Origin: an uncultured Erysipelotrichaceae bacterium
GTDB taxonomy: Bacteria > Bacillota_I > Bacilli_A > Erysipelotrichales > Erysipelotrichaceae
NCBI GenBank assembly: GCA_949289855.1
Contig: CASEPS010000028.1
Span: 1 to 45,821, forward strand
DNA length: 45,821 nucleotides
Reading direction: 5' to 3'
Shown: positions 24,219-42,663 of the stretch, one piece after another
Position numbering within the stretch: position 1 is the stretch's first letter
Layout of the letters: each line of letters starts with the position of its first letter
Program-made: the position numbers and the translations under genes
The notes under the pieces: generated by a model
The model's input: only the letters and a program-made list of their open reading frames with translations
The model's database searches: none
What the model was told of the DNA's origin: nothing

Positions 24219-24347
24219 ATACACATCAAAAGCAAAGAAGTGGAGTAGTACTCATGGATGGCTGTTTAGAGAGACTGCGTCTGGTGAAAGCAGGAGAGCA
24301 TAAGTGAGGAACGTGTCATGGAGCTGCATTCCCGAAGCTTGCGAGGG

Positions 24348-24467
24348 AATGATCGCAGAACCTGCGTTACGGGTCGAGTGTCCACATAAGAAAGATATGT
24401 GGGAAATAATGATCGCAGAACCTGCGTTACGGGTCGAGTGTCCACATAAGAAAGATATGTGGGAAAT
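24348..24467 (+). repeat. Exact 60-bp tandem duplication inside the T-box leader
   Basis: Positions 24348-24407 and 24408-24467 are identical 60-mers. Each carries two hairpins: CGCAG-AAC-CTGCG, and CCACATA / TATGTGG (the usual stem III before the antiterminator). The leader thus has two such modules in a row, leaving stem I and the antiterminator single. Confidence 0.95.
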
Positions 24468-24488
24468 AAGGTGGTACCGCGCATACAG

Positions 24489-24517
24489 CGTCCTTGTCTT
24501 GTGACAGGGACGTTTTT
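24489..24517 (+). terminator. T-box terminator hairpin
   Basis: A 10-bp stem CGTCCTTGTC / GACAGGGACG with one G-U pair, loop TTGT, then TTTTT. Its 5' arm would be used in the alternative antiterminator with the T-box sequence. Confidence 0.85.
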
Positions 24518-34680: not shown

Positions 34681-35511
34681 ATGAAGAAAGTTGGGTTTCA
34701 GGGCAATCATGGAACATTTAGTGAAATTGCCGCATTAGAGTATTTTCAAGGGGAAGATATCGAACAGATCGGTTACCACAATTTTGTGGAAATTATGAAT
34801 GATCTTGAAAGTCACAAACTGGATGATGCGGTATTACCGGTTGAGAATACAACAACAGGCATTATTTCAAGGACATATGATTTGTTCAAGGACTACCACA
34901 TTCATGCGGTGGGAGAGATCAATGTGCCAATCCGGGAAAATCTGATTGTTGTGCCTGGCACAAAGATGGAGGAAATCAAAGAGGTATACAGCCATCCGGA
35001 GGCTCTGTCGCAATGCCGCAGGTTTTTTCAGGAACATCCTTCCATCAAAGAGGTGCCTTTCCAGGATACGGCAAAGTCGGTGGAATATATTAAAGAACAA
35101 CATGAACATAGCAAAGCTGCGCTTGCGTCTTATCGGGCAGCGGAATATTACGGCATGGAATCACTTCTGTCCTGCGTGCAGGATTCTGATACGAATATGA
35201 CACGGTTTCTTGTTGTTACATGGCGTGATGAAGTGGTAGAGGGTGCCAATAAGACTTCTTTGATGCTGGTGGTGAATCATCAGCCAGGTTCTTTGTATAA
35301 GGTGCTGGAGTCTCTTGCAAGACGTGGCATCAATATGTTGAAGCTGGAGAGCAGACCAATTGTTGGCAGATTCTTTGAATATCTGTTTTATGTTGATGTG
35401 GAAGGTGACAGGAGTGATCCACAATTGCAGGAAGCTTTTAGAGAAATGCAGGAAAACTGCCTGGAGCTGCGTGTGTTTGGCAGTTACAGGGCAGCTTCTC
35501 TGCCAAAATGA
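34681..35511 (+). CDS. pheA: Prephenate dehydratase
   Basis: A 276-residue enzyme converting prephenate to phenylpyruvate in Phe synthesis. The catalytic domain is 1-180: KKVGFQGNHGTFSEIAA, DDAVLPVENTTTGII, and the catalytic NMTRFLVV (about 176-183). The ACT domain that binds Phe for feedback inhibition follows (NKTSLMLVVNHQPGSLYKVLE, then KLESRPIVGRF, with the ESRP motif). It has no chorismate mutase domain. ATG 34681 follows AAGGGG; the longer frame from 34651 begins inside the -10 box. No terminator is seen after it, so its transcripts may run into the attenuator before aroB. Confidence 0.93.
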   Translation: MKKVGFQGNHGTFSEIAALEYFQGEDIEQIGYHNFVEIMNDLESHKLDDAVLPVENTTTGIISRTYDLFKDYHIHAVGEINVPIRENLIVVPGTKMEEIKEVYSHPEALSQCRRFFQEHPSIKEVPFQDTAKSVEYIKEQHEHSKAALASYRAAEYYGMESLLSCVQDSDTNMTRFLVVTWRDEVVEGANKTSLMLVVNHQPGSLYKVLESLARRGINMLKLESRPIVGRFFEYLFYVDVEGDRSDPQLQEAFREMQENCLELRVFGSYRAASLPK

Positions 35512-35514
35512 AAA

Positions 35515-35529
35515 TATTTTCAGAAAATA
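35515..35529. promoter_or_regulatory. Candidate CodY box before the aro operon
   Basis: TATTTTCAGAAAATA matches the CodY consensus AATTTTCWGAAAATT at 13 of 15 positions and ends 6 bases before the -35 box. A partial second copy, TCTGAAAA (35542-35549), lies in the spacer. Confidence 0.5.
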
Positions 35530-35535
35530 AAATGA

Positions 35536-35564
35536 TTGTTATCTGAAAATGAATGCGCTATAAT
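35536..35564 (+). promoter_or_regulatory. aro operon promoter
   Basis: -35 TTGTTA (35536-35541), 17-bp spacer, -10 TATAAT (35559-35564). Transcription would start near 35571, about 175 bases before aroB. Confidence 0.8.
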
Positions 35565-35582
35565 CATTTTCGTACAAAAGCT

Positions 35583-35627
35583 ATGAAGACGATCAGGAAC
35601 ACATATTTTTACTTTACCTTTAGATAG
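35583..35627 (+). CDS. Phe/Tyr-rich leader peptide of the aro operon
   Basis: A 14-codon ORF, MKTIRNTYFYFTFR, with five aromatic residues among six consecutive codons (TAT TTT TAC TTT ACC TTT). It begins about 12 bases after the expected transcript start and ends 3 bases before the first RNA hairpin. Runs of the end-product amino acid are the hallmark of attenuation leaders, such as those of pheA and trp in enteric bacteria. A ribosome stalled for lack of charged tRNA-Tyr or tRNA-Phe would change folding of the downstream RNA. The weak point is the missing ribosome site: only ACAAAAGCT lies before the ATG, so initiation would be near-leaderless. Confidence 0.75.
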   Translation: MKTIRNTYFYFTFR

Positions 35628-35630
35628 TCA

Positions 35631-35731
35631 GGGCAGTTATGCAGATAATTGCCCGTTTCGTATGAATGAGGCATTATCTGTAAGGAAAGTGAGATTGAGC
35701 CATACGGATAATGCCGTATGGCTTTTGTTGT
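35631..35731 (+). promoter_or_regulatory. Attenuator RNA with mutually exclusive hairpins
   Basis: Segments pair in alternatives. 1:2 is GGGCAGTTAT / ATAATTGCCC (35631-35654). 2:3 is CAGATAATTGCC / GGCATTATCTG (35642-35653 with 35670-35680). 3:4 is GGCATTATC / GATAATGCC (35670-35678 with 35707-35715). 4:5 is the terminator. When 1:2 forms, segment 3 is free to open the terminator; when a ribosome finishing the leader covers segment 1, 2:3 forms and the terminator stands. This is consistent with attenuation by Phe and Tyr supply. Confidence 0.75.
35698..35731 (+). terminator. Attenuator terminator before aroB
   Basis: Perfect 10-bp stem AGCCATACGG / CCGTATGGCT, loop ATAATG, then TTTGTTGT. It ends 15 bases before aroB and lies inside the operon's own leader, so it must be conditional. 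Confidence 0.85.
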
Positions 35732-35746
35732 ATTGAGGAGAAACGT

Positions 35747-36754
35747 ATGAAGATTGAAGTCCATACAAGTACAAAAACATATCCGGTCATTGTCGAAAGA
35801 GGGATATTACAAAGGGCTGCTGAAGTCATTGGAAGACAAGGGCACGTCTATCTCATCAGTGACTCAGGTGTACCTTTGCAGTGGCGCAACATGTTACAGG
35901 CACAATATCCCGATGCACATATGTATGTGTTTGCGCATGGTGAAACAAACAAGAACCTTGTGACATGGCAGATGATTCTTGAAGATATGCTCAGGTGTAA
36001 CCTTTCCCGCAAGGATACGGTCATTGCCCTTGGTGGCGGTGTAGTAGGAGATATGGCAGGTTTTGCGGCTGCCTGCTACATGAGAGGGATTTCCTACATT
36101 AACATTCCGACCACAACATTGTCGCAGATTGATTCATCTATCGGTGGCAAGACAGCGGTTGACCTCGATGGCGCAAAGAATTGTGTCGGCGCTTTCTGGC
36201 AGCCAGACATGGTGCTCGTTGATACGGATGTGCTTTCCACATTAACCCCAAGGCATTATCGCAACGGGCTGGTGGAAGCTGTCAAAGAAGGGCTGACTTT
36301 TGATGAAAAACTGTTTGCCCTGTTTGAAGAAGGAAATGTTGATGATCATCTTGAAGAGATCATTACCCGCTGTCTTCTGATCAAAAAAGATGTGGTGGAA
36401 AAAGATGAACGGGAAGGCGGACTGAGGAAACTGCTGAACTTTGGTCATACGTATGGACATGCCTATGAAACATATTTCGGCATGGAAGGGTATTACCATG
36501 GTGAGTGTGTTGGTATGGGCATGATGACCATCATTGAAAATGAAGAAATTCGTACAAGACTGCAAAAAGTACTGGAAAAGATGGGCTGTCCTGTCAGATG
36601 TGAAGTGGATAGTGAAAAGATTATGGATCTTTTACGTCATGACAAGAAAGCGGACCACGATCATGTGACGGTTGTACGGGTAGAAGAGATTGGCAAAGGG
36701 TATCTGGAAGAGTGGACGTTTGCGCAATTGGAAAAGAGGCTGAAACATGAGTAA
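35747..36754 (+). CDS. aroB: 3-Dehydroquinate synthase
   Basis: A 335-residue NAD- and metal-dependent enzyme closing DAHP to 3-dehydroquinate, step 2 of the shikimate pathway. Motifs: LGGGVVGDMAGFAAACYMRG (about 97-116) for NAD, IPTTTLSQIDSSIGGKTAVD, NCVGAFWQP, and the metal-binding LNFGHTYGHAYE with its histidines. ATG 35747 follows GAGGAG; the longer frame from 35711 lies in the terminator. First structural gene of a seven-gene operon with tight overlaps; it shares 8 bases with aroC. Confidence 0.95.
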   Translation: MKIEVHTSTKTYPVIVERGILQRAAEVIGRQGHVYLISDSGVPLQWRNMLQAQYPDAHMYVFAHGETNKNLVTWQMILEDMLRCNLSRKDTVIALGGGVVGDMAGFAAACYMRGISYINIPTTTLSQIDSSIGGKTAVDLDGAKNCVGAFWQPDMVLVDTDVLSTLTPRHYRNGLVEAVKEGLTFDEKLFALFEEGNVDDHLEEIITRCLLIKKDVVEKDEREGGLRKLLNFGHTYGHAYETYFGMEGYYHGECVGMGMMTIIENEEIRTRLQKVLEKMGCPVRCEVDSEKIMDLLRHDKKADHDHVTVVRVEEIGKGYLEEWTFAQLEKRLKHE

Positions 36755-37853
36755 CATATTGGGAAAAAACCTGACATTGACATTATTTGGAGAAAGCCAT
36801 GGGGAAGCCATTGGTGCCATATTGGATGGTTTGCCAGGGGGCGTGAAAATAGATCGTTCATATATGCAGGAAATGATGGATCAGCGTAAGGCGGTTGGTT
36901 CATTATCTACCGGACGGCATGAAGCAGATGAAGTGCAGTTTCTTTCTGGTGTAAAGGATGGATATAGTGAAGGCACACCGATTGCTTTGGTCATTGCCAA
37001 TACAAACGTAAAGCGGAAGGATTATGATGCGCTTAAAGATACCGCCCGCCCAGGACATGCGGATTATGCCGGTGATGTGAAATATAACGGTTATGAAGAT
37101 GCCTCTGGTGGTGGTCATTTCTCGGGAAGGCTTACAGCGCCTATCGTTGCTGTAGGGGCAATTGCCCGTAACATGCTGGAAGAAAAGGGCATCTTCATCG
37201 GTACGCATATTGCTTCATTGCATGGCATCAAGGACAGACCATTTGATGAAGTACATCTTTTGGAAGATGTGAACTATCTCAACAAATGTACATTTGCCGT
37301 ACTCGATGCAGGTGTTGGAGAATGCATGAAGGCTGAAATTGAAAAGGCACGTGAACAATGTGATTCGGTTGGGGGTATTCTCGATACGGCAGTTGTGGGT
37401 CTTGAAGCAGGCATTGGTGAACCGGCATTTGATGCTTTGGAAAGTGATATTGCTAAAGCCATATTCTCCATTGGAGCAGTCAAGGGCATTGCTTTTGGAG
37501 CAGGCTTTGGCTTTGCGGATATGTATGGCAGTGAGGCAAATGATCCCTTTGCCATCAAAGATGGAAAGGTTGTGACAACGACCAATCATAATGGTGGTAT
37601 TAATGGCGGCATTTCCAATGGTATGCCTGTACGCTTCCATACGGTTATCAAACCTACACCTTCTATTGCAAAGAAGCAGAATACAGTCAACTATCGCACG
37701 AAGGAAGAAAAGGTATTGGAGATACATGGACGTCATGACCCGGCCATCATCCATCGGGCAAGAGTGGTTGTGGATGCTGTAACAGCACTTGTGATCGCGG
37801 ACAGTCTTATGGAACGCTATGGAAGAGAATACTTCGGAGGAAAAAGAAGATGA
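36747..37853 (+). CDS. aroC: Chorismate synthase
   Basis: A 368-residue FMN-dependent enzyme making chorismate from EPSP, the last step of the common pathway. Signatures: TLFGESHGEAIGAILDGLPGG (near 12-32), the EDASGGGHFSGRLTAPIVAVGA region at about 119-140, and KPTPSIAKKQNTVN followed by GRHDPAIIHRARVVVDA. The length is normal. It starts inside the end of aroB and shares 4 bases with the next gene, so translation is probably coupled. Confidence 0.95.
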   Translation: MSNILGKNLTLTLFGESHGEAIGAILDGLPGGVKIDRSYMQEMMDQRKAVGSLSTGRHEADEVQFLSGVKDGYSEGTPIALVIANTNVKRKDYDALKDTARPGHADYAGDVKYNGYEDASGGGHFSGRLTAPIVAVGAIARNMLEEKGIFIGTHIASLHGIKDRPFDEVHLLEDVNYLNKCTFAVLDAGVGECMKAEIEKAREQCDSVGGILDTAVVGLEAGIGEPAFDALESDIAKAIFSIGAVKGIAFGAGFGFADMYGSEANDPFAIKDGKVVTTTNHNGGINGGISNGMPVRFHTVIKPTPSIAKKQNTVNYRTKEEKVLEIHGRHDPAIIHRARVVVDAVTALVIADSLMERYGREYFGGKRR

Positions 37854-39088
37854 AGTATGGACTGATTGGCAGGCCCCTGGGACATTCATGGTCACCTGAG
37901 ATACATGCGCTGCTGGCAGATATTCCTTATGAGAAGAAGGAATTGCAGGAAGAAGCGCTGGAGGATTTCTTCCGGTTACGTGACTTCAAAGGTATAAATG
38001 TAACGATTCCGTATAAGGAAAAGGTGATACCGTATCTTGATGAACTGGATGAAAGTGCAAGAGCAGCTGGTGCAGTGAACTGCATTGTCAATGAGAATGG
38101 AAAGCTGAAAGGCTATAATACAGATCTTTTGGGATTACGGCAGATGCTGGAAAGAAATGGGATTGATCCAAAAGGAAAAACAGTTGCCATTCTTGGCAGT
38201 GGTGGTGCTGCTAAAGCAGCCTGTACTGCCATAGAACAAATGCATGGCACACCGGTTATCGTTTCCCGCCATCCGTCAAAGGACATGATCGGTTATGAAG
38301 AACTTTATGAAAGGGCAGCTGACTTTGAGATGATTGTCAATGCAACACCGGTTGGCATGAAACCTGACAGTGATAAGTGCCCGGTGGATATTGCGGTATT
38401 TGAGCATCTTGAAGCGGTTGTGGACATTGTTGCCAATCCCTTGATGACAAGGCTGTTGTTCAATGCAAAGATGCGTGACATACCATTTTGTGGAGGCTTT
38501 GAAATGCTTGTAAGACAGGCTGCTGAAGCAGATTGCCTTTTTACAGGTGAAAAAGTCAGTGAAGAAGTTATAGAAACATGTATAAAGAAGCTTCTGGCAA
38601 AACGCCGTAACATCGTATTGATCGGTATGCCGACAAGTGGAAAGACAACGCTTGCCGAGATGATCGCTTCTCATACCGGACGACCACTATTGGAGATGGA
38701 TGAAGTGCTTGTGGACAGGCTTGGTATGTCGATCAAAGACTGTTTTGCCCAATATGGGGAAGCATATTTCCGGCATATGGAAACAGAGCTTGCAAAGGAT
38801 CTTCGCAATAAGGAAGGTATTGTGATCTCTACCGGTGGCGGCATTATCAAAAATGAGGAGAATATGCGCTACCTGCATGAAAATGGCATAGTGATTGCGA
38901 TAGACCGCGATCCTGCATTGCTTTATCCGACTGATTCAAGACCGCTCAGTTCGACAGTGGATGCGGTGAAGGTTTTGTATGAGGAAAGAAAGTACTTATA
39001 TAAGAAGTACAGTGATGTTGTTGTGGATAACAATGGCTCACTGCAGAATACATTTGATGAAATCATGATAATAACAGGGGAGGAATAA
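37850..39088 (+). CDS. aroE/aroK: Shikimate dehydrogenase-shikimate kinase fusion
   Basis: A 412-residue bifunctional protein joining two consecutive pathway enzymes. Residues 1-248 are shikimate dehydrogenase: RPLGHSWSPEIHA, catalytic K56 (VTIPYKEKV) and D92 (YNTDLLG), NADPH loop LGSGGAAKA, and NATPVGM. Residues 252-412 are shikimate kinase: P-loop GMPTSGKT (259-266), shikimate-binding MDEVL and EAYFRHMET, the TGGGII loop and the adenine-side DSRPL. They are separate genes in many bacteria; fusions of the two are uncommon but known. The dehydrogenase makes shikimate, which the kinase domain phosphorylates next, so channelling is conceivable. Confidence 0.93.
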   Translation: MKYGLIGRPLGHSWSPEIHALLADIPYEKKELQEEALEDFFRLRDFKGINVTIPYKEKVIPYLDELDESARAAGAVNCIVNENGKLKGYNTDLLGLRQMLERNGIDPKGKTVAILGSGGAAKAACTAIEQMHGTPVIVSRHPSKDMIGYEELYERAADFEMIVNATPVGMKPDSDKCPVDIAVFEHLEAVVDIVANPLMTRLLFNAKMRDIPFCGGFEMLVRQAAEADCLFTGEKVSEEVIETCIKKLLAKRRNIVLIGMPTSGKTTLAEMIASHTGRPLLEMDEVLVDRLGMSIKDCFAQYGEAYFRHMETELAKDLRNKEGIVISTGGGIIKNEENMRYLHENGIVIAIDRDPALLYPTDSRPLSSTVDAVKVLYEERKYLYKKYSDVVVDNNGSLQNTFDEIMIITGEE

Positions 39089-39094
39089 GGAATT

Positions 39095-40114
39095 ATGATT
39101 ATCACATTGAAAAAAGAAGCACCAGAAAAGGAAGTGGAAAAAATCCGGAAGAATTTTGAGGACAAGGGACTGCGGGTCAATATGATCCTTGGTGAAGAGT
39201 TCAATGTCTTCGGTCTTGTTGGTGATACGGCACATCTTGATGATCGTGCAATCATGGCGAATGAATGGGTAGAAAATGTACAGCGCGTATCTGCACCATA
39301 CAAGCTTGCCAACCGTATGTTTCATCCGGAAGATTCTGTTGTGGATGTGGCTGGTATCCCGGTTGGTGGAAAGAGCCCGATTGTCATCATCGGTGGACCT
39401 TGTTCTGTAGAAAGTGAAGAACAGGTGACACGGATTGCGGAAGAAGTGAAGGATGCGGGTGGCTGCATGTTAAGAGGTGGTGCATATAAGCCACGCACTT
39501 CACCATATGCATTCCAGGGTCTTGGCTATGAAGGAATTCTCGATATGGTGGCTGCCCGCAAAAAGACAGGTCTTCCAATTGTTTCTGAGCTCATGAGTAT
39601 CGACAAGCTTGATGAGTTTGAAGAAAACGTGGACCTTGTGCAGATTGGTGCAAGAAATATGCAGAACTATGATCTTTTGAAGGCTTGTGGAAAGCTCAGT
39701 AAACCAGTACTTCTCAAACGTGGTATGTCCGCTACGATTGAGGAATGGATCATGAGTGCTGAATATATCATGGCAAGTGGTAATCCAAATGTCATTCTTT
39801 GTGAACGTGGTATCCGCACATTTGAAAAATATACAAGAAATACGCTTGATCTTGCGGTTGTGCCGATCATCAAGGAAAAGACACATCTGCCAATCATCAT
39901 CGACCCATCTCATGCGACAGGTGACTGGAAGTATGTGGAAGCAGTTTCCCTTGCAGCTATTGCGGCAGGTTGTGATGGTCTGATCGTTGAAGTACATGAT
40001 CATCCGGAAAGTGCATGGTCTGATGGTGCACAGTCTTTGAAGCCGCTCAAGTTCAAGCATCTGGTTGACAGAGCCCGTCCAATTGCTGAGGCGGTTGAAA
40101 GAAGTGTCAGATGA
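39095..40114 (+). CDS. aroF: 3-Deoxy-7-phosphoheptulonate synthase
   Basis: A 339-residue DAHP synthase of the AroA-beta type, the entry step from PEP and erythrose-4-phosphate. The N-terminal 70 residues (MIITLKKEAPEKEVEKIRKN) are the ferredoxin-like regulatory domain that binds Tyr or Phe in related enzymes. The barrel follows: GGPCSVESEEQ (about 98-108), LRGGAYKPRTSPYAFQGLG, IGARNMQNYDLL, CERGIRTFEKYTRNTLD, and DPSHATGDW. It is encoded fourth in the operon, six bases after aroE/aroK, and overlaps aroA by 4. Feedback inhibition by end products is likely, adding to attenuation. Confidence 0.93.
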   Translation: MIITLKKEAPEKEVEKIRKNFEDKGLRVNMILGEEFNVFGLVGDTAHLDDRAIMANEWVENVQRVSAPYKLANRMFHPEDSVVDVAGIPVGGKSPIVIIGGPCSVESEEQVTRIAEEVKDAGGCMLRGGAYKPRTSPYAFQGLGYEGILDMVAARKKTGLPIVSELMSIDKLDEFEENVDLVQIGARNMQNYDLLKACGKLSKPVLLKRGMSATIEEWIMSAEYIMASGNPNVILCERGIRTFEKYTRNTLDLAVVPIIKEKTHLPIIIDPSHATGDWKYVEAVSLAAIAAGCDGLIVEVHDHPESAWSDGAQSLKPLKFKHLVDRARPIAEAVERSVR

Positions 40115-41382
40115 TTGCCCGCATACAGCCTGAAAAGGCAGCAGGAGGAGAGGTAACACTGCCTGCCAGCAAATCTCTGAGTCACAGGGCAATCCTTGCG
40201 GCATCTTTAGCCAATGGGGTTAGTGTTCTGCATCATTCTGGCACCAACAAAGATATTCTTGCGACAAGAAAGGCAATGGAACACTTCGGTGTCCGCTTTG
40301 AAGAAGTGGGTAATGACCTGTATGTCTATGGGAATGGGAAATTACAATATGATGGTGAAGTGATTGATTGCAATGAATCCGGAAGTACGTTACGCTTTCT
40401 CATTCCGCTTGCGGCATTGCAGGAAAAAACAGTTGTTTTTACAGGGCATGGCAGGTTGATGGAACGGCCACAGACGGTTTATGAACAGTTGTTTCACGAA
40501 AGAGGGATGCGTTTTGAAAAAAAGGACAATCTTCTCTATGTCGGTGGCGGTCTCAAGGGTGGTGACTTCACTGCCTGTGGAAATATTTCTTCACAGTTTT
40601 TTACCGGTCTTCTCTATGCTCTGCCTCTTGTGGACAAAGACAGTACATTGACGATCATGCCTCCATTTGAATCGGAAAGCTATGTCAATCTGACCATGGA
40701 TGTATTGCGAAAAGCAGGCATTGAAATTCACCGTGATGGACTTGTTTATTCCATCAGGGGAGGTCAGCACTATCAGCCGATTGACTATGCGATCAGTGGG
40801 GATGATTCACAAATGGCATTCTTTGCCTCACTTGCATGTATTGCCAATGTGCCAGTAACCGTGCATCATGCGGATCATGACTCCCACCAGGGGGATCATG
40901 TGATTCTTGATATCATCCGAAACTTTGGTGGAAAGGTACAGGAAGTGCATGATGGCTATCAGTTTTCTTCTGGGAATTTGAAAGCTGTTACTGTGGATCT
41001 GGCGGATTGTCCGGATCTTGGGCCGGTATTGTTTGCCCTTGCCGCACAGGTGGAAGGGGAAACCGTATTTACGCATTGTGAACGGTTGCGCATCAAGGAG
41101 AGTGACCGCATAGCCCGTATGGAAGAAGAGCTGCATAAACTTGGTTGTGAAATACAAAGTGATGGGGGAACGGTTGTTGTCAAAGGAAAGACGCCGATTC
41201 ACGGTGGAGTGAAGCTTGATGGACATAATGACCATCGGATTGTGATGGCACTGAGTGTGCTAAGTGCCGTTTGTGAAGAAGCGGTTGAGATATGTGGGGC
41301 TGAGGCGATAGAGAAAAGCTATCCAGCTTTCTTTCAAGACCTGAAGCGTTGTGGAGTGCAGGTGGAGTATGTTGAAGAATAA
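40111..41382 (+). CDS. aroA: 5-Enolpyruvylshikimate-3-phosphate synthase
   Basis: A 423-residue EPSP synthase joining PEP to shikimate-3-phosphate. Motifs: LPASKSLSHRAIL with K21, S22 and R26; the PEP-site CNESGSTLRFLIPL near 88-101; SSQFFTGLLYALP; then RIKESDRIARMEEELHKLG and DGHNDHRIVMALSVL at the end. The PEP loop reads NESGST rather than the enteric NAGTA, typical of some Gram-positive lineages. It begins at an ATGA overlap with aroF and overlaps tyrA by 14 bases. Confidence 0.94.
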   Translation: MIARIQPEKAAGGEVTLPASKSLSHRAILAASLANGVSVLHHSGTNKDILATRKAMEHFGVRFEEVGNDLYVYGNGKLQYDGEVIDCNESGSTLRFLIPLAALQEKTVVFTGHGRLMERPQTVYEQLFHERGMRFEKKDNLLYVGGGLKGGDFTACGNISSQFFTGLLYALPLVDKDSTLTIMPPFESESYVNLTMDVLRKAGIEIHRDGLVYSIRGGQHYQPIDYAISGDDSQMAFFASLACIANVPVTVHHADHDSHQGDHVILDIIRNFGGKVQEVHDGYQFSSGNLKAVTVDLADCPDLGPVLFALAAQVEGETVFTHCERLRIKESDRIARMEEELHKLGCEIQSDGGTVVVKGKTPIHGGVKLDGHNDHRIVMALSVLSAVCEEAVEICGAEAIEKSYPAFFQDLKRCGVQVEYVEE

Positions 41383-42217
41383 GAAGATTACCATTCTTGG
41401 ACTTGGTGTGCTTGGTGGCAGTTATGCCAAAGGATTGCATAAGGCAGGCGTTGCGGTTTCCGCAATTGATATTGATGAAGATGCATTACAAACAGCATTG
41501 TCCAATGGATGGATTACAGAGGGTGATACAGATCCTGCAATGATCAAAGACAGCGATATTGTGATTTCCTGTCTTTATCCGCATGCTTTTGTGAAATGGA
41601 TTGCGGAGAATAAACAGTATTTCAAAAAGGGCGCACTTCTGACGGATGTGACTGGTGTAAAACGGGCAGTGATGGAAAGGGTGAATGCCGCATTGCCGGA
41701 TGGCGTGGAGTATATTGCCTGTCATCCGATGGCCGGCAGGGAGTCAAGGGGCCTTGCCTATGCGGATGAAAACTGCTTCACCAATGCCAATTTCATCATT
41801 GTGCCAGAACATAACAGTCAGTATGCACTGGACACTGCTTATGAAATTGCCCATATTCTTGGGTTTGGCAATATTGTGGAACTTACCCCGGAAGAACATG
41901 ACCGGATGGTTGGCTTCCTTTCCCAGCTGACACATGTTATAGCGGTATCTTTGATGAATGTGGCAGATAATACGGATCTTGCGGATTATACGGGTGATTC
42001 ATTCCGGGATCTTACCCGGATTGCCAATATCAATGAATTGTTATGGCCAGAGCTCTTTGTGCTGAACAAGGATTATCTCATGAAGGAAATTGATGCGTTT
42101 ACTGAGGAAATGCAGGTGTTCAAAAAGCTGATTGCGGATGAGGACTATGCTGCAATGCAGGAAAAACTCAGGATTTCCACAAGGCGAAGGGCATATTTCA
42201 ATAAGAAGAAGGGATGA
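41369..42217 (+). CDS. tyrA: Prephenate dehydrogenase
   Basis: A 282-residue NAD(P)-dependent enzyme leading from prephenate to 4-hydroxyphenylpyruvate (or from arogenate to Tyr). The Rossmann motif GLGVLGGSYAKGL is at about 10-22; also LTDVTGVK, ACHPMAGRESRGLAYAD and LTPEEHDRMVGFLSQLTHVIA, the TyrA core. It lacks a C-terminal ACT domain. The start is ATG 41369, three bases after AGGTGG, or TTG 41372 with better spacing. It lies in the aro operon although its partner pheA is separate. Confidence 0.92.
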   Translation: MLKNKKITILGLGVLGGSYAKGLHKAGVAVSAIDIDEDALQTALSNGWITEGDTDPAMIKDSDIVISCLYPHAFVKWIAENKQYFKKGALLTDVTGVKRAVMERVNAALPDGVEYIACHPMAGRESRGLAYADENCFTNANFIIVPEHNSQYALDTAYEIAHILGFGNIVELTPEEHDRMVGFLSQLTHVIAVSLMNVADNTDLADYTGDSFRDLTRIANINELLWPELFVLNKDYLMKEIDAFTEEMQVFKKLIADEDYAAMQEKLRISTRRRAYFNKKKG

Positions 42218-42663
42218 AGAAAATGAAGATCATGGTATTGAACGGACCGAATCTGAATATGGTCGGTATCCGTGAAAAAGGGATTTATGGCACGATGTCT
42301 TATGAAGACATGCTGGTGGAAATACAGAAGTATGCCAAAGAAAAAGGTGTTGAGACAGATTGCAGACAGAGCAACCATGAAGGTGATCTTGTAGACTGGA
42401 TTCAGGAAGCGTATTTCCAGCACTATGATGGCATTGTTATGAATCCTGGGGCATATACCCATACCAGTGTTGCCATTGCGGATGCGGTGAAGGCCATTGC
42501 GCCAATTCCGGTAGTGGAAGTACATATCAGTGATATCAATGCCCGGGAGGAATTCCGTCATATCAGTTATGCGGCACCATATTGCCTCACCCAGATCAAA
42601 GGACATGGGATTCGTGGCTATATGGAAGGTATTGATGCAATCATTTCTGCTTCAGAGCAATAA
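42214..42663 (+). CDS. aroQ: 3-Dehydroquinate dehydratase, type II
   Basis: A 149-residue type II dehydroquinase catalysing step 3 of the shikimate pathway. Signature LNGPNLNMVGIREKGIYGTMSYEDM carries the catalytic Arg and Tyr; QSNHEGDLVDWIQEA, NPGAYTHTSVAIADA and VEVHISDINAREEFRHIS complete the active site with the catalytic His. The length is standard. It shares ATGA with tyrA; a second ATG at 42223 is also possible. It is the last recognisable pathway gene of the operon, and no terminator hairpin follows. Confidence 0.95.
   Translation: MKKMKIMVLNGPNLNMVGIREKGIYGTMSYEDMLVEIQKYAKEKGVETDCRQSNHEGDLVDWIQEAYFQHYDGIVMNPGAYTHTSVAIADAVKAIAPIPVVEVHISDINAREEFRHISYAAPYCLTQIKGHGIRGYMEGIDAIISASEQ

Follow-up and report, generated by a model that had tools for sequence, protein, structure and literature searches.

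A probable tyrosine- and phenylalanine-sensing leader-peptide attenuator before the shikimate operon of an Erysipelotrichaceae bacterium and its relatives

How an uncultured Erysipelotrichaceae bacterium adjusts transcription of its shikimate and tyrosine genes is the question raised by a stretch of 45,821 nucleotides of its DNA (contig CASEPS010000028.1 of assembly GCA_949289855.1), referred to here as the window. A leader separates pheA from an operon in the order aroB-aroC-aroE/K-DAHPS-aroA-tyrA-aroQ, and an earlier note on this DNA had read that leader as a Phe/Tyr leader-peptide attenuator. Inspection of the sequence located the promoter, open reading frame (ORF), RNA segments and terminator of that reading where the note had placed them (Table 1), and the leader itself is a real feature. 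Very probably it works as a transcription attenuator mediated by the ribosome, with charged tRNA-Tyr and tRNA-Phe as its signal and the shikimate/tyrosine operon as its target. The gap between the end of pheA and the promoter is 24 bp, and pheA is not part of the attenuated transcript. The palindrome TTTTCAGAAAA recurs 5 to 8 nt 5' of the -35 in about half of 24 relatives; the window's own genome has just two copies that are followed by TTG, the second of them at G000:C81:4223. This palindrome could be the operator of some regulator, or an UP-like element.

In the proposed mechanism, segment 3 of the leader RNA would be the pivot, with segment A (the 3' end of the ORF), segment 2 and segment 4 as its three possible partners. 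With no ribosome on the leader, 1:2 and A:3 would form, the terminator 4:5 would follow, and the operon would be off. When Tyr and Phe are ample, a ribosome at the stop codon would cover A and segment 1, giving 2:3 and again the terminator, so that the operon would be off in this state as well. A shortage of Tyr or Phe would stop the ribosome on the aromatic codons, where it would cover A but leave segment 1 uncovered to form 1:2; segment 3 would then be free to capture segment 4 as it emerges from RNA polymerase, and transcription would continue into aroB. This scheme builds on the ORF, codon positions, pairings, spacing and operon as read from sequence and comparison, and it supposes that the ORF is translated, that ribosomes stall on the leader, and that termination responds.

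Table 1. Coordinates of the leader, its RNA segments and the neighbouring genes in the window
Feature	Position	Strand	Basis
pheA, prephenate dehydratase with ACT domain	34681-35511	+	Pfam PF00800 (1e-56), PF01842
Palindrome TTTTCAGAAAA, conserved, just 5' of the -35	35517-35527	+	Same place in about half of 24 relatives
Promoter: -35 TTGTTA (35536-35541), 17-bp spacer, -10 TATAAT (35559-35564)	35536-35564	+	Sequence; position conserved in relatives
Putative 5' UTR of about 12 nt, without Shine-Dalgarno	35571-35582	+	-10 to ATG distance 18; predicted transcript start
Leader peptide ORF MKTIRNTYFYFTFR, 14 codons (ATG 35583, stop TAG 35625-35627)	35583-35627	+	41 nonredundant leaders keep the frame, the ATG and the F/Y codons
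Sensor codons Tyr-Phe-Tyr-Phe-Thr-Phe, positions -7 to -2	35604-35621	+	F/Y 68-97% per position in relatives
Segment A, ORF end and stop (UUUAGAUAGU), partner of 3	35619-35628	+	Swap test z -5.7; minimum-energy structure; RNAalifold consensus
Segment 1 (GGGCAGUUAU)	35631-35640	+	1:2 swap test z -9.9
Segment 2 (CAGAUAAUUGCCC), partner of 1 or 3	35642-35654	+	2:3 swap test z -5.8
Segment 3 (GGCAUUAUCUG), partner of A, 2 or 4	35670-35680	+	RNAalifold; swap test
Segment 4 core (GGAUAAUGCC), antiterminator partner of 3	35706-35715	+	3:4 swap test z -7.8
Intrinsic terminator 4:5 (GAGCCAUACGG / CCGUAUGGCUU and U tract; stem 35697-35724)	35697-35731	+	4:5 swap test z -13.6; compensatory stem changes
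aroB, first controlled gene (ATG at 35747), own GAGGAG ribosome site	35747-36754	+	Pfam PF01761 (8e-45), PF24621 (6e-32)
aroC, aroE-aroK fusion, DAHP synthase, aroA, tyrA, aroQ	36747-42663	+	Pfam

The leader ORF lies between the promoter and the intrinsic terminator, and if the leader is an attenuator then homologous leaders would be expected to keep both the ORF and its aromatic codons. AroB homologues were gathered by protein similarity alone, and the first 24 leaders predate any criterion applied to the leader. All 24 of these distinct Erysipelotrichaceae loci have an ATG-started ORF of 11-15 codons with an aromatic block at its end, followed in order by a GGGC/GCCC hairpin, GGCATTATCT, and a terminator, so that the comparison of relatives bore the expectation out. 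Across a set of 38 nonredundant aro leaders the share of Phe or Tyr is 79% at codon -7, 89% at -6, 87% at -5, 97% at -4, 68% at -3 and 89% at -2, against 0-16% at each of the seven codons preceding -7, and codon -1 is Arg in 32 of the 38. Among 41 leaders the F/Y codon pattern TWY fills 85% of positions -7 to -2 in frame versus 19-21% in the other frames, where base composition predicts 9%. The start codon is ATG in every one of the 41, while the stop codons TAG, TAA and TGA interchange. The aromatic block is not due to chance, since all 41 nonredundant leaders have at least four Phe, Tyr or Trp residues at codons -7 to -2 and only 13 of 4100 regions shuffled by dinucleotide do; for the loci found later with the model, the conservation of the block is not fully independent evidence, as the F/Y block was partly used in the leader search. 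The conserved ORF with its F/Y block thus provides the short ORF with end-product codons that defines this class of attenuator, its translation being presumed.

Leader ORFs of similar length in Bacillota often act as arrest peptides (ermC, bmrB; PMC4191407), in which case stalling would be caused by the nascent chain on exposure to a small molecule or antibiotic, and codon hunger would not be the trigger. However, the peptide sequence is not conserved here, only its aromatic content and position being kept, and the operon that follows serves Phe and Tyr synthesis. Tyr readily replaces Phe, and Phe Tyr, among the leaders, whose N-terminal half is variable in length and sequence, and this interchange favours codon sensing over an arrest peptide, which we regard as exceedingly improbable.

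The leader RNA (35571-35746) folds at -57 kcal/mol, compared with -35.5 +/- 3.2 kcal/mol for dinucleotide shuffles (z = -6.67), none of 200 being as good. In 34 leaders the distance between the first base of the stop codon and the start of segment 1 is mostly 4-6 nt. Pairing was assessed with an alignment-free swap test on 38 leaders and 5000 permutations, which compares how well each leader's segments pair within that leader and with the partner segments of other species. Own partners paired better for 1:2, 2:3, 3:4, 4:5 and A:3 (Table 1), and swapped partners reached the native value in 0 of 5000 permutations for each of these five pairings. The control pairings 1:3 and 1:4 showed no own-partner advantage in the same 38 leaders (z -1.0 and 0.0), and A:4 was marginal (z -2.2). 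The four stems proposed in the earlier note (1:2, 2:3, 3:4 and 4:5) therefore all co-vary between species while the controls do not, and its segments are all present; what it had missed is that the ORF's own 3' end is a further, sixth pairing element. RNAalifold independently chose both A:3 and 4:5, and the stem of the terminator shows compensatory changes. This co-varying stem with its U tract constitutes an intrinsic terminator before the first structural gene, although the terminator had been placed 15 bases before aroB and the stem in fact ends about 22 bases, and the T-run about 16-19 bases, before that gene. The interruption of the U tract (UUUUGUUGU) counts against the model.

In the added pairing, the ORF-end motif AGAUAR pairs with segment 3. 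A near-identical AGAUAA occurs in both A and segment 2, so the complementarity of A with segment 3 could be partly a by-product of that shared motif, and the Arg codon AGA and the stop could be fixed for other reasons; the attenuator would then be the same but would follow the five-segment scheme only, with A:3 playing no role. We consider this unlikely, because A:3 has its own-partner advantage and is present in the minimum-energy and RNAalifold structures, and joint changes in A and segment 3 are visible in L031 (CUCGGAUGA/AUCCGAU) and L111 (UUCAGGU/AUCUGAA). Furthermore, without A:3 the ribosome-free leader would be on. The switching logic that had been said to close is accordingly supported in its on/off scheme of four pairings but was incomplete, since the pairing of the ORF end with segment 3 would turn the ribosome-free leader off as well.

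The position of the ribosome was modelled at every codon of 34 leaders, with the leading edge of the ribosome set 10, 12 or 14 nt downstream of where the A-site codon begins; L068, L069, L074 and L089, whose segment borders are unclear, were excluded from these scans. A:3 falls from 0.56 to 0.03 once the ribosome is at codons -5/-4, whereas 1:2 is kept until -2 and then drops from 0.96 to 0.18 at codon -1 and 0.02 at the stop. In the model, segment 3 is consequently free only with the ribosome at about -6 to -2, the same place as the F/Y codons, even though the calculation of this permissive range drew on the RNA and the ribosome footprint but not on the codons. For the leader of the window itself, A:3 keeps a value of 0.64 through codon -7, then falls to 0.10 at -6 and to 0 at -5 and beyond, while 1:2 stays at 1.0 until -2 and falls to 0.65 at -1 and 0.01 at the stop. 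Plain equilibrium folding did not serve: it gave no discrimination of states for the full transcript and partial discrimination for a transcript ending after segment 3. Because the terminator prevails at equilibrium in every ribosome state of the full transcript (P >= 0.89), antitermination must be kinetic, and because some homologues in the stalled state favour 2:3 over 1:2 at equilibrium, the model relies on 1:2 forming first. A sequential reading, with 1:2 formed before segment 3 is synthesised, is needed to tell the states apart; in known attenuators, too, antitermination is assumed to rest on the order of synthesis. Given this reading, folding with the ribosome footprint blocked produces the switch that had been predicted, and alternative structures set by the position of the ribosome are found across the 34 leaders, with kinetic ordering assumed.

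A search of the leader against Rfam 15 returned no family at gathering score, with chance-level matches only at E up to 10, and the T-box (RF00230) is absent from it. The nearly invariant identity of some loop-side bases, such as the TTT after segment 2, and the conservation of the palindrome 5' of the -35 are features that a metabolite-binding riboswitch or a protein-binding attenuator might show, the aromatic ORF being incidental, but there is neither an aptamer-like conserved core nor an Rfam match. Such an element would also leave unaccounted for the conserved in-frame F/Y codons, ATG and interchangeable stop codons, as well as a codon block lying exactly where the modelled stalled ribosome would switch the fold, and we judge it very improbable.

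The earlier note had admitted as a weak point that the leader ORF has no clear ribosome site, and indeed none is found at the ORF of the window. In the closest relative, L052, the distance from the -10 to the ATG is 6 nt, which would put the start codon at the very 5' end of the transcript or right beside it, with a UTR of about zero; in a dozen further leaders the distance is 6-9 nt. An unrooted AroB tree places leaders without a Shine-Dalgarno sequence (SD) on one side (28 rows) and nine leaders on the other, with support of 100/99. The exceptions among the 28 are three with weak or doubtful SD-like sequences and L084, which has a clear SD, while eight of the nine have a recognised GAGG-type site and the ninth, L093, has GAGG further upstream. 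As the two kinds separate on the AroB tree, the difference in initiation mode is a property of lineage, and in the clade of the window the leader ORF probably starts without a Shine-Dalgarno, from a very short or absent 5' UTR.

A sequence-only model (R1) built from the 24 leaders picked up the element in 34 of the 70 genomes from the window's genus, and its matches in 61 of the 316 genomes of the order all fall in Erysipelotrichaceae. After inspection, 47 genomes in 10 genera (the window included) have a leader ORF before an aro gene, which is nearly always aroB but is DAHP synthase in one genus (L094). In three genomes of an eleventh genus, g39 (L105, L107 and L110), the leader precedes an ABC_sub_bind (PF04392) transporter gene and encodes aromatic runs of the type FFFFF or FYYFYY (MVNNHNITNISFFFFFR, MKQQLISLTLAGSFYYFYYR), which suggests that Phe/Tyr uptake in this genus is under the same kind of attenuator. 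A transporter in the window's genome resembling that of g39 has a T-box instead (L125). Outside Erysipelotrichaceae, a class sample (395) and a phylum sample (392) gave four weak R1 matches (L139-L142), all of them rejected as unrelated on inspection, as were the weak matches L082, L103, L104, L106, L108 and L109. L080 and L081, before aroC, have a related terminator without a leader ORF, and L083 is a match to the terminator only. L097, L098, L101 and L102 (genus g40), located before an amino-acid ABC transporter, have only terminator sequence in common with the aro leader; we take them to resemble lysine riboswitch expression platforms (AGAGGTAGCG...TTGGGGC). About half of the genomes of the genus are without an R1 match, some of these assemblies being incomplete. 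Where pheA runs straight into aroB (L134-L137; also G001 and G010) no attenuator was found, nor was a T-box in the upstream region of L134-L137. The attenuator is therefore dispensable, since these members of the genus lack it.

Enteric trp and pheA leaders have four segments and share with the leader of the window a short ORF with end-product codons, mutually exclusive hairpins and an intrinsic terminator; the window's leader differs in having five segments plus the ORF end, which puts the antiterminator one step further down. The enteric his attenuator (RF00514) has six segments, A-F, whose alternating linear pairings lead to an intrinsic terminator, and it is off without a ribosome, on when the ribosome is stalled at the sensor codons, and off at the stop. 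The leader of the window has this same on/off parity, so that five segments, although different from the four of trp as had been noted, are not without precedent for exceeding four. The his attenuator senses His rather than Tyr/Phe, and its first segment pairs with the next (A:B), whereas in the window's leader the end of the ORF reaches over the 1:2 hairpin to pair with segment 3.

The earlier note had named T-boxes or TRAP as normal for Bacillota; leader-peptide attenuation was already known in that phylum (PMC2965389, PMC9413887, PMC5864092). His-gene leader peptides with sensor codons were predicted in bacilli in 2010 (PMC2965389), and in 2022 His leader-peptide attenuators were predicted for six Erysipelotrichales his operons and for the Bacillus cereus group and Peptostreptococcaceae (PMC9413887). 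These Erysipelotrichales leaders belong to the same order as the window and likewise have tandem sensor codons before a biosynthetic operon, also as a prediction only; they concern histidine and the his operon, and the portion of that paper available to us mentions no aromatic codons, leaderless start or ORF-end:segment-3 pairing (PMC9413887). Ribosome-mediated attenuation has experimental support at rli60 of Listeria monocytogenes (ilv-leu; 13-aa leader), where start-codon and RBS mutants have lower read-through, i.e. are off without translation; rli60 differs in responding to branched-chain amino acids, in its four segments and in having a ribosome binding site (PMC5864092). For uORFC-13-1, an aromatic-codon uORF with a terminator at Acholeplasma aroF, attenuation has been proposed. 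It has at least one Phe codon and an RBS and occurs before aroF only, in Acholeplasma and environmental sequences only (PMC8632094); as far as descriptions can be compared, the leader of the window differs in lying before aroB without an RBS, while its relative L094 lies before DAHP synthase with one. Two Phe/Tyr uORF candidates before shikimate genes were reported in 2019 (PMC6429828, Fig. 6b), and their likeness to the window's leader, as far as descriptions go, is that of an aromatic-codon uORF before a shikimate gene. Leaderless leader-peptide attenuators are represented by Sinorhizobium trpL (PMC7298713) and Corynebacterium ilvBNC (PMC11857589), with the ORF at or near the 5' end of the transcript, as would be so in the clade of the window, but these are from Alphaproteobacteria and Actinobacteria and respond to other amino acids; no leaderless example from Bacillota was found in the literature searched. 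As far as that literature goes, control of a whole shikimate operon across a family, the lock between ORF end and segment 3, and the SD/leaderless split appear to be new. We tentatively put forward a wider reading, which is quite possible: that the 3' end of the ORF is a regulatory strand permitting read-through only with a ribosome on about six codons, that initiation mode (Shine-Dalgarno or leaderless) is split between two branches of the family, and that Bacillota have here their first leaderless leader-peptide attenuator, and also their first for a whole shikimate operon.

The window's own genome has 17 T-box candidates, eleven of which score above the Rfam cut-off; the candidates precede serS, metG, hisS, a his operon, ileS, valS, thrS, leuS, pheST and others, the products being named from a reading of protein starts. 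A T-box leader of 101 bits is present in the window itself (24226-24498), where the gene that follows encodes the substrate-binding component of an amino-acid ABC transporter. The cell probably has two sensors of Phe-tRNA, a T-box at pheST and the leader peptide of the aro operon. Control by tRNA charging in this genome would run largely through T-boxes, yet the aromatic pathway appears to use a leader peptide read by the ribosome, and one cell with two ways of sensing the same charged tRNAs would offer a natural comparison. The dozens of natural variants with compensatory changes are material on which the logic of the attenuator could be tested, and the split between SD-led and SD-less leaders allows the effect of initiation mode to be asked in an attenuator that depends on the timing of ribosome loading. 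The leader points to how Phe and Tyr synthesis is probably regulated in one group of gut bacteria, many of which are known only from metagenomes.
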